A program made the translations under genes and the position numbers. From assembly GCA_009840285.1 (NCBI GenBank), contig VXOF01000081.1:1-57098 (forward strand): DNA of 57,098 bases, given 5' to 3'. Positions 47,772 to 52,839 of this stretch are shown one piece after another; the stretch's first letter is position 1, and every line of letters starts with the position of its first letter. The notes below the pieces were generated by a model, which was not told the origin of the DNA, searched no databases, and was given only the letters and a program-made list of their open reading frames with translations. The DNA is from Nitrospira sp. SB0662_bin_26 (lineage in GTDB: Bacteria > Nitrospirota > Nitrospiria > Nitrospirales > UBA8639).

Positions 47772-47779
47772 GAAACTTT
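47772..47779. repeat. Left 8-bp target-site duplication (GAAACTTT)
   Basis: The octamer GAAACTTT directly outside the left inverted repeat recurs exactly at 50979-50986 outside the right one. An 8-bp direct repeat is expected for IS1595-family insertions. Confidence 0.85.
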
Positions 47780-47802
47780 GGGACTTATGTATTTAACTTG
47801 AC
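47780..47802. repeat. Left terminal inverted repeat of the IS1595 element
   Basis: This 23-bp end begins GGGACTTATG and contains the start of the transposase promoter (-35 TTGACA at 47798). It matches the right end in inverse with two differences. Confidence 0.85.
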
Positions 47803-47826
47803 AAACCCCTCATTTTAGTATATGAT
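47798..47826 (+). promoter_or_regulatory. Transposase promoter
   Basis: TTGACA (47798-47803) and TATGAT (47821-47826) with a 17-bp spacer form a near-perfect sigma-70 promoter whose -35 box is inside the terminal repeat. A strong ribosome site (AAAGGAGG) precedes the transposase start at 47863. Confidence 0.7.
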
Positions 47827-47862
47827 CCTCCCTACTGAATATTACACAGAAAGGAGGAAATC

Positions 47863-48795
47863 ATGAAAAAATCAGCCACAACTTTGAGCCTCTTCCAATT
47901 AACCGAACTCTTTCCTACCATTGACCATGCCATACGATATTTTGAGCAAGTGCGCTGGCAAGGTACTCCCATTTGTTCTAAATGTCAGAACATACATAAA
48001 ATCACAACACAAAAGAAAACTGGGACGTACTGGTGTGGCATGTGTCGCGCCTATTTCACCGTATTTACGAATACTCCATTAGAACGGAATAAAGTCGATG
48101 CTCGCAAGTGGCTCTTTGCTGCGTATCTCATGTTGACGGCCCGTAAGGGTATTTCTTCTATGCAGTTAAGCAAGGAGTTATCTGTCCAACAACGTACCGC
48201 TTGGTTTATGTTGCATCGACTTCGGTTAGCTTGTGAAACCATGCCGGAATTATTGTCAGGTGTGGTTGAAATTGACGAAACATTTGTTGGAGGGAAAGCG
48301 AAAAATAAACACATGAAACGAGGAGGGAAGCCGTCTGGAGGACAAGTGAATCAACAGCCGGTGATGGGATTTAAACAACGAGATGGAAAAACACTAGCAA
48401 AATCTATTCCTGGAACAGATCGACTCACGTTATGGACTGAAATTCAGAAAACCGTTCAACAAGGAAGTGTGTTATGTACGGATGCGCTTCCCGCTTATCG
48501 AGGGATTGTCAGAAAAGGGTATCAGCATGAAGCGTTGAATCATAAAGCTAATGAATATGTCCGAGGTATGGCCCATACGAACGGGATTGAAAGCGTATGG
48601 GCTGTTCTCAAACGAGGATTAGCAGGAACGTTTCATCAAGTGAGTATGAAACACTTGGACCGCTATGTGAATGAGTTTACATTCCGGTTGAACGAAGGGA
48701 ATTGTCAGGTTGATACGATAGATAGAATGGAGTCTTTATTTCAAGCTATGCCTGGAAAACGGATTATGTATCGGGATCTTATTGCAAAAGCTTGA
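47863..48795 (+). CDS. IS1595-family transposase
   Basis: A 310-residue transposase of the IS1595 (ISXO2-like) family. An N-terminal zinc ribbon has Cys 38, 41, 58 and 61 (CSKC and CGMC). The catalytic residues follow the DDNK scheme: D138 (VVEIDETFVGG), D207 (CTDALPAYRG), N240 (HTNGIESVWA) and K250 (LKRG). It is full-length with a good ribosome site, so probably functional. It catalyses cut-and-paste of the surrounding element. Confidence 0.93.
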   Translation: MKKSATTLSLFQLTELFPTIDHAIRYFEQVRWQGTPICSKCQNIHKITTQKKTGTYWCGMCRAYFTVFTNTPLERNKVDARKWLFAAYLMLTARKGISSMQLSKELSVQQRTAWFMLHRLRLACETMPELLSGVVEIDETFVGGKAKNKHMKRGGKPSGGQVNQQPVMGFKQRDGKTLAKSIPGTDRLTLWTEIQKTVQQGSVLCTDALPAYRGIVRKGYQHEALNHKANEYVRGMAHTNGIESVWAVLKRGLAGTFHQVSMKHLDRYVNEFTFRLNEGNCQVDTIDRMESLFQAMPGKRIMYRDLIAKA

Positions 48796-48832
48796 CAGAA
48801 GAACTACGTAAGTAGTATACTCTGTGAAATGA

Positions 48833-48926
48833 GGCACGGACGGGAATCAAACCCGCTCTCAAAAGATTGTTCCTTTTGAGGCCAGGGGATGCAAATCCCA
48901 GCACCTTATCGGTCAGTCACCGTGCC
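48833..48926 (-). ncRNA. tRNA-like structure with long variable arm (possible degenerate tRNA)
   Basis: Read on the minus strand, 7-bp acceptor arms GGCACGG and CCGTGCC enclose 94 nt. A T-arm-like hairpin (GCGGG, TTTGATT loop, CCCGT) directly precedes the 3' acceptor strand. Before it lies an 8-bp variable arm (CTCAAAAG with CTTTTGAG). The anticodon region around TTTGCAT does not fold cleanly with five pairs and the D-arm is poor. It may be a decayed or unusual tRNA carried by the transposon. Confidence 0.5.
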
Positions 48927-48941
48927 ATAAGTATTTAAAGA

Positions 48942-48975
48942 AAAGGCCCATCGAGATGCAACGGTGGGCTTTTTT
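48942..48975 (+). terminator. Rho-independent terminator after the transposase
   Basis: GCCCATCG pairs with CGGTGGGC (one G-T pair) across an 8-base loop, and is followed directly by a run of seven T. It would end rightward transcription from the transposase. Confidence 0.7.
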
Positions 48976-49024
48976 TCTATTCTCCTTTCTTGATTCTCTC
49001 CTGACAACCTGCTACGGTTTCTTC

Positions 49025-49167
49025 TGCTGTATCTCTCAGGTGGCCCTTAGTCGGGTCTCCTGCCAATACAAGAGCCTGATTTTGTCATCTTGGGTAGCTC
49101 CCAAGCCTGATGAAATCGTTTTCCAAAGGTAAATACGCAGGGTCTTCCTTTACCTGGGAGATACAGC
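49025..49167 (+). ncRNA. Structured RNA candidate upstream of the passenger glycosyltransferase
   Basis: The ends GCTGTATCTCTCAGG (49025-49039) and CCTGGGAGATACAGC (49153-49167) pair over 15 positions with one mismatch. Inside are smaller hairpins: CTTGGG with CCCAAG, flanked by CATC and GATG, and GGTAAA with TTTACC. No protein-coding frame fits. It lies about 50 bp before the glycosyltransferase start and could be a leader or an independent RNA. The strand is assumed from the downstream gene. Confidence 0.4.
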
Positions 49168-49218
49168 AAGGCCCGACCTTGTGTTGGGCTTGTCTAGCTC
49201 AATCCAGGAGGGCCTACC

Positions 49219-49998
49219 TTGCCACAACTGCGCGTTCGCACAATCCCTGTTTTTGTGGTGTCGTTACCGGATTGCACTGAGCGACGTGAATCTATTTCAA
49301 AAGCCCTCTTCAATCTCGGTATCAAATTTGAATTTATTGATGCGGTGGATGGTCGCCACGGTCTCGATCCCCAGTATGAAGACCAGATTGACCGTACCAC
49401 TACCAAACAGAATGGGAAAATTTTGTCCGATGCCGAGTTTGCTTGTGCGTTATCACATCTTACTGTTTATCAACGTATCGTCTCTGAAAACATAGCCTAT
49501 GCTCTCATCTTAGAAGATGATGCTATCCCCTCTCTGAAGTTAGCCGAGTTTCTGGTTGAATGCTATTATCGTGACGCTGAATTGACGCAACTCTATTGTC
49601 CACGGGCATATGTAAGTCGATGGGGCTCCTATGCCCTCCTCCAGCATCATACGTCATATGTACGCTTACCTCGCGTCCCAGTAGTGGGTGCGGTTGCGTA
49701 TACGGTGTCCTATCGAGCCGCCCTGCATTTTGTGAACCATGCTGTCCCGATCACAAAGGAAGCTGACTGGCCGAGGTGCATTGAAGCCTTAATTAAAAAC
49801 CGGCAGTGTCGTGCCATTTATCCTCCACTGGTCGGGCACCCGATCCGTCATCCTGGACAGTCCTTGCTTGCTCATAGTGAACGAATATACGACAAAACAA
49901 GCCGTAGATTCTTTGGTGTCTACTTTCCAACTTACCGAAGAATGATCGAGTCTTGGAGTAGGACTCCCTACAAACTGATAGGGAAACGTTTGCCATGA
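49219..49998 (+). CDS. Glycosyltransferase family 25 protein (transposon passenger)
   Basis: A 259-residue GT25-type glycosyltransferase, as in LPS core or lipooligosaccharide synthesis. It starts VFVVSLPDCTERRESI, contains FIDAVDGR, and has the EDD metal-binding motif in ALILEDDAIPS at residues 99-101. The start codon is TTG, supported by AGGAGGG seven bases upstream. It could alter surface sugars. It overlaps the next gene by four bases. Confidence 0.8.
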   Translation: MPQLRVRTIPVFVVSLPDCTERRESISKALFNLGIKFEFIDAVDGRHGLDPQYEDQIDRTTTKQNGKILSDAEFACALSHLTVYQRIVSENIAYALILEDDAIPSLKLAEFLVECYYRDAELTQLYCPRAYVSRWGSYALLQHHTSYVRLPRVPVVGAVAYTVSYRAALHFVNHAVPITKEADWPRCIEALIKNRQCRAIYPPLVGHPIRHPGQSLLAHSERIYDKTSRRFFGVYFPTYRRMIESWSRTPYKLIGKRLP

Positions 49999-50381
49999 AA
50001 CTAGTCATCGTTTCATTCATTGTGGCAATTGTTATGCTTGTGACTGATCAAGGGAAAGCTGAAGAATTTTCGGCAGAACAGTTAGATAAAATTCTTGAAG
50101 AGCACAGCTATGATTATCGACAGGAAATTGAAGAAGACGTATTTAAGCCCTGTCTTCAATATTATCTAAAAAGGATAGAACGCAGATATGCCAGCATTGG
50201 TTGGGACTATAATGAAAAGCTCATCCACTCAGAGCTTTCGCTCTTAGTTATGAAATTAAGAAAAATGGAACCAAGCATTTATTATGAAGCGATAAAACAT
50301 GATGCAGAAATGCGAAATGCGATTTATGCGCTGGTGTTAGCACAGTGTAAAAAACAAGTTGATGAAAGTGAGGGAGGGTAG
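49995..50381 (+). CDS. Small secreted protein, unknown (transposon passenger)
   Basis: A 128-residue protein with a signal peptide (MKLVIVSFIVAIVMLVTDQGKAEE), then an alpha-helical part with two cysteines far apart (KPCLQYYLK, LAQCKKQ). It is translationally coupled to the glycosyltransferase (ATGA overlap). I recognise no family. Confidence 0.65.
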   Translation: MKLVIVSFIVAIVMLVTDQGKAEEFSAEQLDKILEEHSYDYRQEIEEDVFKPCLQYYLKRIERRYASIGWDYNEKLIHSELSLLVMKLRKMEPSIYYEAIKHDAEMRNAIYALVLAQCKKQVDESEGG

Positions 50382-50468
50382 GCTTGTTTTTCGTTGTCGA
50401 TCTTGGTATACTTACGTATATTTGTTATCTTTATTGAAGATAAGATGACTGTAATTTAGGAGGTTCTT

Positions 50469-50684
50469 ATGGAATGGATTAAAGCTTTAGGGCCAATTAT
50501 TGTTGCTCTTGTTGCTGTGTATACACTTTCACAAGATACAGGAATTATGCTTGGAGAATTAAAAGAAAGCGTTAACAATTTAGATAAGAGGATGGGCACA
50601 ATAGAAATGGAAGTGCGTCTTTTGAATACTAAATTTGATGGTCTTCAAGTTACCGCTCTGTCCCCCAAACTCGCTGCTAATTAA
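50469..50684 (+). CDS. Small membrane protein with coiled coil (transposon passenger)
   Basis: A 71-residue protein: one transmembrane helix (LGPIIVALVAVYTL) then a heptad-rich region (LKESVNNLDKRMGTIEMEVRLL). AGGAGG lies 6 bases upstream of the start, a convincing ribosome site. It resembles small phage or mobile-element membrane proteins in layout only. Confidence 0.55.
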   Translation: MEWIKALGPIIVALVAVYTLSQDTGIMLGELKESVNNLDKRMGTIEMEVRLLNTKFDGLQVTALSPKLAAN

Positions 50685-50746
50685 AGATTCATTCCTCTTT
50701 TCCAAGTTCTTATTTATACGTTAAATCAACAGAAGGAAAAATCAAA

Positions 50747-50965
50747 ATGAAAGTTGTTATCGAAAAACTAGATTTGCTGGACATACTTGATCCTCGAATA
50801 CACAAGGTTCTCACTTATGGGCTTGAAGGGGATAAAGATGCCATTCAATTTTTGGAAGAAAAAGGCATAATTTCTATTGAAATGATTGATTCCGAAACAA
50901 TGAACATTTTAATCAACCGTAATGAACTTAAGAAATTAGAGGATGAAGAATGCTCGTCAAATTAA
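50747..50965 (+). CDS. Small hypothetical protein at the right end of the transposon
   Basis: A 72-residue, soluble, acidic protein (LEGDKDAIQFLEEKGIISIEMID). A ribosome site (AAGGA) precedes the start. The stop lies inside the right terminal repeat of the element. No family recognised. Confidence 0.5.
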   Translation: MKVVIEKLDLLDILDPRIHKVLTYGLEGDKDAIQFLEEKGIISIEMIDSETMNILINRNELKKLEDEECSSN

Positions 50966-50978
50966 CTACATAAGTCCC
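50956..50978. repeat. Right terminal inverted repeat of the IS1595 element
   Basis: Complement reads GGGACTTATGTAG and continues to TTGAC, matching the left end at 21 of 23 positions. The end of the small passenger gene overlaps it. Confidence 0.85.
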
Positions 50979-50986
50979 GAAACTTT
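50979..50986. repeat. Right 8-bp target-site duplication (GAAACTTT)
   Basis: Identical to the octamer at 47772-47779, marking the insertion point. Confidence 0.85.
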
Positions 50987-51128: not shown

Positions 51129-51146
51129 ACGTAAAAAAGCATTTAG

Positions 51147-51288
51147 GGAACCTCTGATTTAGTGCACTATCGGGCGCATGGCTGCGTTGCGTCCTCGCTC
51201 AACCCTCACCTATCTCTCTGATAAGCCTCGGGTTTCGCTCCGGGACGCCTTGCCCTGCATCCCGCTATCACAATAAATCAGAGGTTCC
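51147..51288. repeat. MITE-like element with 15-bp inverted ends
   Basis: GGAACCTCTGATTTA (51147-51161) and its exact complement (51274-51288) bracket about 142 bp without a gene. The right end abuts the stop of the HtrA gene. The inner part is GC-rich with CGTTGCGTCCTCGCTC-type sequence seen in dispersed repeats of many bacteria. Confidence 0.65.
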
Positions 51289-52839
51289 TTAGTTTCCGCC
51301 GATCGACAGGAAGAGCGTGGAACGGCCTCGTCTGAGAAGAACCAGGACCGCATCGTCTTCGTCGAGCCGGCTGGTGACGCGATCGAAATCGTCCGTATCC
51401 GCGATGGCGATCCGGTTGATTTCCATGATGACGTCGTCTTTTCGTATCCCGGCCCGGGCTGCACGGCTGTCGGGCTGGACCTTCATGACGCGGACCCCTT
51501 TGTTGCCGTCAGACCGTTCTGACGCCACCGATTCGACCGTCAAACCCGACAGGGCATGATGTTCCCCGACGGTACCCACTTCGCCGGTCCCGGCCATATC
51601 CTTGGGCATCAGTCCGATGACGACGGTCAGGCGCTTCTTGTTGCCTTCACGCAGAATCTCCACATCCAACTTGGTTTCGGGAGGCGTCTCGGCTACGTAG
51701 GTACGTAGCTTGGTCGAGTTCCCGACCGCACGCCCGTCGTATTCGCGAATGATGTCACCCCGTTGAAACCGGGCATCTTCCGCGGGACTCCCCTCGACCA
51801 CGTCGGTGACCAGGGCGCCTTTGGTCTCCGTGGTTTCAAATTGTTTCGCCAGGTCGGGAGTCAGGTCCTGGATGGACACGCCGAGCCAACCCCGGACCAT
51901 TTTGCCGTAAACTTTCAAACTCTGCGCCACCCCTTTGGCCATGTTGCTCGGGATGGCGAAACCGATACCCATATACCCGCCGCTCCGGCTGAAGATGGCC
52001 GTGTTGATGCCGATCAGTTCCCCTCGGACGTTCACCAAAGCCCCGCCGGAGTTCCCGGGGTTGATGGCCGCATCGGTTTGAATAAAATCCTCGTAGTCGG
52101 CAATACCCACGTTGGCCCTTCCCACGGCACTGATAATACCCATGGTCACGGTCTGGTTCAGGCCGAAGGGATTTCCCACGGCCACGACCATCTCCCCCAC
52201 CTCCAACGTGCCGGAATCACCCCAGGAGAGAAACGGCAACCCCGACGCATCAATTTTCAATATGGCCAAGTCGGTCTTGGGATCGGTCCCGATCAATTCC
52301 GCCTCGAATTTCCGTTGATCGCCCAACACCACCTGAATTTCATCGCCCTCGGCCACCACGTGATTGTTCGTGACGATATAGCCGTCGGGATTGACGATGA
52401 CCCCGGACCCCATGCCTTGTTGCCGGCGTCTCGGCGCTTGGCGACGTTCCTCCCTGAATCGGTCTCCAAAAAATTTCCGAAAGAAGGGGTCGTCAAAAAA
52501 CGGGGAATGAGGAAACGGAGAACTTCGCGGGGCGGTCGTCTTCACGATTGAGATATTGACCACCGCGGGCGTGACTTTCTTGGCAATCGCGATCAGGTGC
52601 CGGTTGAAACCGAGGAGGTCTTCGCTCGTGGCGGAAGGAGAAAAGGCAGCCGGTTGAGCCATGGGGGCTTGCGCAAGCAGCTCAGGGGGCGCAACCTGTT
52701 CTTCCGAAGCTTGAATGGCCGTGGGCGGCTGAAAGAACGTCGCACTCGCGCCCAACGCCAGGCACACACAGATAAAACTCCCGATCGCCAGGACGACGGG
52801 GTTCTTCAAGACGGAATTCAGGGACCCTTGTTCTCGCAT
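51289..52839 (-). CDS. degQ: HtrA/DegQ-type periplasmic serine protease
   Basis: A 516-residue protease-chaperone. An N-terminal signal anchor is followed by a trypsin-like domain with His160 (VTNNHVV), Asp190 (TDLAILKI) and Ser264 ([11 protein letters not shown]), then two PDZ domains in the C-terminal 220 residues. It degrades or holds misfolded envelope proteins. The long N-terminal linker is Pro/Ala-rich. Length and motif order are normal. Confidence 0.93.

Follow-up and report, generated by a model that had tools for sequence, protein, structure and literature searches.

An IS1595-family transposon carrying a glycosyltransferase gene behind a candidate regulatory leader RNA in Nitrospira sp. 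SB0662_bin_26

Introduction

Passenger-carrying insertion sequences (ISs) of the IS1595 family, which hold genes unrelated to transposition between their ends, are called transporter ISs (tISs). A named tIS of this family is ISNha5, for which a transcription regulator is given as the passenger (PMC11891212, citing Siguier et al. 2009). The transposases of all IS1595 groups except IS1016 have an N-terminal zinc ribbon (PMC8101967). Here we describe an element of this family from a 57,098-nucleotide stretch of contig VXOF01000081.1 of Nitrospira sp. SB0662_bin_26 (hereafter the window), whose passengers include a gene for a glycosyltransferase of family 25 (GT25) preceded by a structured leader RNA. 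The leader recurs among genomes of the same Nitrospiraceae genus (G numbers below, with contigs as C and loci as L numbers), which probably belongs to Nitrospira lineage IVb. This lineage is mostly sponge-associated (PMC12342949). As far as the databases and literature searched show, both the leader class and its carriage by tISs are new.

Results

An IS1595-family insertion with an empty site in relatives

The element proper spans positions 47780-50978 (3,199 bp) and is flanked by genes for a DUF6573 protein and an HtrA-type protease. The initial annotation had placed a 3.2-kb unit at 47772-50986; the unit is real, and those coordinates take in both target-site duplications as well. Its ends, flanks and transposase are as follows.

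47772..47779, no strand: left copy of the target-site duplication, GAAACTTT, an octamer that relatives have once at their uninterrupted site
47780..47802, plus strand: left terminal inverted repeat, GGGACTTATGTATTTAACTTGAC; its TTGAC end is the -35 box of the transposase promoter
47863..48795, plus strand: IS1595-family transposase, 310 amino acids (aa), with matches to PF12762, PF12760 and NF033547
50956..50978, minus strand: right terminal inverted repeat, partner of the left end
50979..50986, no strand: right copy of the target-site duplication, GAAACTTT

Both the inverted ends, matched at 21/23 positions, and the perfect 8-bp duplication of the octamer at the two flanks were re-found as initially claimed. 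The surrounding 12 kb were scanned for end-bounded units, defined by inverted ends matching at 15/20 positions or more together with a duplication of 7-8/8, and this pair was the only one reported. We then compared the locus with the empty site in relatives of the same genus that are without the insert. The flanks are joined in G004 and G001, with 95% and 93% identity across the junction over about 300 bp, and more locally, over about 150 bp, in G010 and G006. A single octamer stands at the uninterrupted site in all four genomes, identical to GAAACTTT in G004 and G010 and differing by one base in G001 and G006. Because relatives carry the uninterrupted site with one octamer, the insertion and its 8-bp target duplication are real and not due to chance. 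The element is a recent insertion. The GC content of the element is 42%, compared with 56% for the whole window.

The transposase is intact. It matches PF12762 (DDE_Tnp_IS1595) with E=6.1e-44 and NF033547 with 199 bits (cut-off 75), and the zinc ribbon PF12760 is recognised at its N-terminus with 28.4 bits (cut-off 25.4); motif assignment gives D138, D207 and E243 as the presumed catalytic residues. A near-consensus promoter, TTGACA-17-TATGAT (47798-47826, 11/12), extends over the left end ahead of the gene. The inverted ends begin with GG (GGGACTTATG...). Those of IS1595 elements likewise start with GG. Ends of this kind have been described for Merlin elements (PMC8101967), and one IS1595 end sub-type in the genus starts with CGCAATTTCC and not with GG. 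Duplications of 8 bp also flank IS1595 units of the relatives (CTTACAAA, CTATTTAG, CACTCGAC and ATTCAATT). No close relatives of the transposase were found in viral contigs, and all its plasmid relatives have less than 60% identity. Ends, duplications, transposase models and empty sites agree on a complete IS1595-family transposon with passenger genes, in line with the original proposal, and the comparison with genomes lacking the insert, which the initial annotation had named as able to refute its proposal, came out in its favour.

A covarying leader RNA recurs across the genus

The stretch between the transposase and the GT25 gene recurred many times in a DNA search of the relatives. In the aligned copies, GTCGGGTCNCCTG..AATACAANAGCC and GGTAAATACGCAGGG are common and lie inside a long stem of varying sequence. 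A structured RNA other than the tRNA-like sequence had been mentioned in passing by the initial annotation, and it is borne out by the fold of the window copy (z = -6.4 against shuffles), by covarying stems and by a covariance model with 46 matches in 13/14 genomes of the genus (E down to 1e-46). We examined 45 of these 46 matches singly and used 42 for the covariation analysis. The elements of the leader in the window, all on the plus strand, are listed below.

48990..49018, plus strand: putative promoter-like site TTGATT-17-TACGGT, read by eye, directly preceding the leader
49022..49196, plus strand: leader RNA of the structured class, 175 nt, with P1, crossing pairing, P2, internal loop and 3' hairpin
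49025-49043/49150-49168, plus strand: P1 stem, covarying
49050-49055 with 49172-49177, plus strand: crossing strands, GTCGGG with CCCGAC
Plus strand: P2, CCTGC/GCAGG
Plus strand: conserved internal loop, AATACAAGAGCC / GGTAAATACG
49175-49189, plus strand: competing 3' hairpin

Strands of P1 scored a mean of 15.4 with their own partners and 7.4 with partners swapped between members, and in the 11 members of equal geometry 99.3% of the cells pair, compared with at most 47.6% when the strands are slid. Across the 42 members 98.2% of the counted pairs stand, two-sided changes occur in 19/20 pairs, and the compensatory cells amount to 222, where shuffled controls give 53.5 +/- 8.1 and slid controls no more than 33, in an alignment that was fitted to the structure. 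The crossing pairing between GTCGGG, inside P1, and CCCGRC, just outside it, is complete (6/6) in 41/42 members and includes two compensated variants (ATCGGG/CCCGGT and GCCGGG/CCCGGC); we read it as a putative pseudoknot. An alternative partner for CCCGRC, a downstream GGTCGGG-type hairpin matching at 6/7 positions or more, is found in 22/42 members, compared with 11% in shuffles. A switch between two folds is therefore plausible for the class, and not universal among its members.

No match to the leader model was obtained in 35 genomes of other Nitrospiraceae, nor, under strict filters, in 287 genomes of other Nitrospirota, and its core pattern has no match in viral contigs. A 15-mer scan of GTDB contigs located the full motif, among the loci listed, in Nitrospira records only; given that limit to the loci listed, occurrence beyond Nitrospira is not excluded. 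Comparison with the 4227 covariance models of Rfam gave no hit that reached the gathering score, and relaxing the thresholds added none that was convincing. Identity between leaders of different genomes is mostly low. These data suggest that the leader is an undescribed, conserved class of cis-regulatory RNA of this genus; as in riboswitches, its structure is conserved, covaries and stands in the 5' leader of genes. A 17-nt inverted repeat had also prompted its consideration as a miniature inverted-repeat transposable element (MITE), which was ruled out, that repeat being the covarying P1 stem.

The leader mostly ends 20-30 nt ahead of the downstream start codon. Its targets comprise genes for surface lipoproteins (the TbpB type among them), outer-membrane proteins, small membrane peptides and glycosyltransferases. 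An export-type N-terminus is present in 29/45 open reading frames (ORFs) downstream of a leader and in 75/424 background ORFs. Several of the ORFs without such an N-terminus encode glycosyltransferases, namely GT25 enzymes in the window and in G008:C40 and, by reading of translations, GT8-like proteins in G012:C49, G004:C6 and G011:C103 and a GT2-like protein in G005:C92.

Leaders are carried by IS1595-type units

With the GT25 gene, the leader RNA and three further ORFs between its ends, the window element is a tIS. IS1595 elements with this cargo had been called unfamiliar in the initial annotation; the element type was already known, as ISNha5 illustrates, and the novel part is the leader RNA that it carries. 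Further end-bounded IS1595 units of 1.8-4.7 kb are present in G001, G002, G004, G005, G006, G008, G009 and G012. Among the passengers of the units of the genus are KilA-N proteins, P63C proteins and DNA methyltransferases of the C5 and N6/N4 types, some with an Mrr-type domain and some lacking one, as well as a TbpB-type lipoprotein and, by reading of translations, HicAB-like ORFs. Two kinds of unit are without a full transposase: one of 1.8 kb in G001:C24, and a non-autonomous unit of 945 bp found twice in G005 (L270 5490-6434 and L271 5533-6477), without mismatches and with different target duplications, each copy of which holds a leader RNA and, judged by eye, an apparent small hydrophobic ORF.

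An IS1595 transposase is found within 4 kb of 11/45 leaders, where genome sizes would predict 0.5. Eight are inside end-bounded units, namely those of the window, G004:C10, G001:C28, G005:C100, G005:C11, G005:C33, G005:C48 and G005:C92, and this number includes both copies of the identical 945-bp unit, which occupy different sites in one genome. The leader starts about 50 nt inside the inverted end in several units, and the TTGAC of that end can serve as a putative -35 box for the leader. Several further leaders have an IS1595-like end 49-238 nt upstream. Starting just upstream of the promoter, the window and G008:C40 align at 73% over the promoter-leader-GT25 block, which suggests that promoter, leader and gene were probably captured as one cassette.

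Three other observations were made on these units. Five of them (L245-L249) share a target octamer, CTTACAAA, present as such, as its reverse complement TTTGTAAG or as the one-base variant TTTGTAAA, and this recurrence at independent insertions suggests a target preference. Contigs break exactly at IS1595 inverted ends at the end of L252 (G005:C48) and at the starts of L253 (G005:C92), L255 (G006:C73) and L243 (G005:C57), and units broken in this way therefore escape detection based on duplications. The IS1595-ended, 1.8-kb unit of G001:C24 (L266 5403-7215), which has no transposase, matches the sequences flanking the window's leader over 42 and 41 nt, at 98% and 95% identity, and the RNA domain between them is absent; L016 1461-1542 is the other locus of this observation.

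The GT25 gene and the small ORFs

Downstream of the leader the element contains the following features.

49206..49211, plus strand: Shine-Dalgarno sequence AGGAGG, 7 nt ahead of a TTG start
49219..49998, plus strand: GT25 glycosyltransferase, 259 aa, with PF01755 and an LEDDA motif
49995..50381, plus strand: 128-aa ORF with a signal peptide-like N-terminus, no family match
50469..50684, plus strand: 71-aa membrane/coiled-coil ORF with a strong Shine-Dalgarno sequence, no reliable family match
50747..50965, plus strand: 72-aa ORF with no family match that extends into the right inverted repeat

PF01755 matches residues 10-177 of the GT25 protein with E = 2.6e-27, and LEDDA, the acidic EDD motif, starts at residue 98. 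G008 encodes two relatives, one 62% identical, which stands behind the same leader, and the other 57% identical; distant relatives include solved GT25 and procollagen galactosyltransferase sequences. No convincing homologues of the three small ORFs were found among the fetched loci. An alteration of surface sugars by the cargo is plausible, given the GT25 gene and the other surface-protein and glycosyltransferase targets of the leader. Two other possibilities for the cargo were rejected: a phage origin of the GT25 gene, since tblastn found nothing in 50,697 phage records, although there are matches to two PHROG glucosyltransferase profiles, and a defence system, for which there was no PADLOC match. 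The contents initially ascribed to the element hold: the structured RNA, the GT25 gene, the three small ORFs (one signal peptide-like, one membrane) and the tRNA-like sequence, the last with a score below the tRNA cut-off.

The tRNA-like unit and a repeat outside the element

Between the transposase gene and the leader there are three further features.

48792..48821, plus strand: promoter-like site TTGACA-18-TATACT, 11/12, directed into the tRNA-like unit; a consensus match only
48832..48926, minus strand: tRNA-like sequence with a long variable arm (class II shape)
48945..48976, plus strand: terminator-like hairpin with a T-run, called on the minus strand by the scan and possibly bidirectional

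The tRNA-like sequence scores 26.2 bits with the Rfam tRNA model, below the gathering score of 29, and ARAGORN makes no call at default settings and an ambiguous one ('???') at reduced threshold. With these sub-threshold scores and no usable anticodon loop, a functional tRNA at 48832-48926 was ruled out. An 81% copy in G006:C73, likewise inside an IS1595 unit, shows compensatory changes in the acceptor and variable stems. In the window (48792-48976) the plus-strand promoter-like site and the terminator-like hairpin bracket the minus-strand tRNA-like sequence, and the layout in G006:C73 is similar; these signals suggest a separate small RNA complementary to the tRNA shape. In G012:C49 (L267 6829-6903) a tRNA gene with the unusual anticodon ACT, called Ser and without a long variable arm, has an IS1595-like end on one side and, on the other, a leader RNA and its GT8-like gene.

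Outside the element, at 51144-51291, the window holds a repeat of about 150 bp with imperfect inverted ends (AGGGAACCTCTGATTTA...). At least 42 copies of it occur in the window's genome, and 10 further genomes of the genus contribute many more (93-99% identity among those listed); it is missing from the matching flank in G004 and G001. It is a very abundant element of MITE-like or repetitive extragenic palindrome (REP)-like character.

Discussion

We consider it likely that tISs have spread surface-gene cassettes led by a riboswitch-like RNA within this genus. An IS1595-family transposase acting between matched ends carried a passenger segment into the chromosome, as observed, and this segment includes a complete expression cassette made up of the promoter-like site, the leader RNA, the Shine-Dalgarno sequence, the GT25 gene and probably the three small downstream ORFs. 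To judge from its predicted structure, the leader probably acts as a riboswitch-like switch: the covarying P1 would enclose the conserved internal-loop core, GTCGGG inside P1 would pair with CCCGRC just outside, and in many members CCCGRC could instead pair with the GGTCGGG-type hairpin shortly before the Shine-Dalgarno sequence. A signal that stabilises one of the two folds would then alter translation of the surface gene, the GT25 enzyme would alter a surface glycan and the small ORFs may assist. IS1595-type units have repeatedly captured and moved such cassettes within the genus, as the eight leader-holding end-bounded units show, and by this route surface genes would travel between genomes ready-regulated.

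Several points weigh against this explanation. The window element is a single copy in its own genome (2.2 Mb, 113 contigs), so that current activity is only a possibility. The duplication is unreadable or not preserved in G005:C48, G005:C92 and, with degraded flanks, G005:C100; in the first two it is unreadable because one terminus of the contig coincides with an inverted end, as happens where assemblies meet repeats, and the genomes of the genus are mostly fragmented assemblies. The background ORFs of the export comparison came from loci around leaders and transposases and not from whole genomes, and the downstream start codons were picked by a script, some of them wrongly. A convincing competing hairpin is wanting in about half of the members, and the switch may work otherwise.

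Since most of the 45 leaders lie outside recognisable IS1595 units, the leader need not have spread mainly by transposition. The same observation favours an ordinary tIS that took up a chance chromosomal gene with its own leader, the IS1595 link being incidental where ISs pile up in accessory surface-gene regions, as does the alignment of the promoter-leader-GT25 block with its counterpart in G008:C40, where no IS1595 ends are seen. This account is possible and on balance doubtful: it fits poorly with the excess of leaders close to a transposase, with the enclosure of eight leaders in end-bounded units, two of which are identical 945-bp copies at separate sites, and with the IS1595-like ends upstream of several more. 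Could the different surface genes behind a shared leader instead reflect a DNA recombination element that shuffles them behind a common 5' sequence? We find this very improbable, since P1 sequences diverge and yet stay paired, a pattern accounted for by selection on RNA structure but not by homologous exchange, and leaders of different genomes have mostly low identity.

The leader could be another element of the 5' untranslated region, such as a protein-binding site, a fold that responds to temperature or salt or a structure that stabilises the mRNAs of surface proteins, and the chance of this falls somewhat short of even. The many, functionally broad targets are what a global surface regulator would have, and the competing hairpin is clear in just half of the members; on the other hand, the two long, near-invariant internal-loop strands in a freely covarying stem resemble an aptamer core, and the crossing helix is retained in nearly all members. 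The lone leader copy of the window genome, moreover, came on a transposon, which suits a self-contained switch better than a partner-dependent one. Returning to the riboswitch-like leader, a wider proposal can be made tentatively, and we would not yet rely on it: a new riboswitch class restricted to sponge-associated Nitrospira may co-ordinate the symbiont surface, with its TbpB-type lipoproteins, outer-membrane proteins and surface-sugar enzymes, in response to a host or habitat signal, with tISs as vehicles of its ready-regulated cassettes between genomes.

This work adds a well-supported candidate class of regulatory RNA, whose targets form the cell surface, in an uncultivated and largely sponge-associated lineage of nitrite oxidisers, and it documents transposons that carry genes together with a structured RNA, the putative regulator, so that a surface gene gained in this way could join a regulatory response already in place as soon as it arrives. 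Two questions thereby become testable, namely which signal tunes the surface of sponge symbionts and whether mobile elements favour pre-wired cargo.

The window transposon is itself of a known kind. It shares with tISs such as ISNha5 a DDE_Tnp_IS1595 transposase with a zinc ribbon, GG-starting ends, 8-bp duplications and the location of the passengers between the transposase and the right end, and it differs in its passenger, a GT25 cassette under a leader RNA together with a tRNA-like unit, where a transcription regulator is the passenger for which ISNha5 is cited. The enzyme agrees with glycosyltransferase family 25 in PF01755, the LEDDA motif and its distant solved relatives, and is unusual in lying in a transposon and behind a leader RNA. 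The leader, in turn, resembles riboswitches and other covarying 5'-leader RNAs in its long closing stem, conserved internal-loop core, crossing helix and alternative 3' hairpin, in its position just before the Shine-Dalgarno sequence and in its many unrelated target genes, whereas it matches no Rfam family convincingly, is confined to one genus among the genomes searched and is found repeatedly on transposons.

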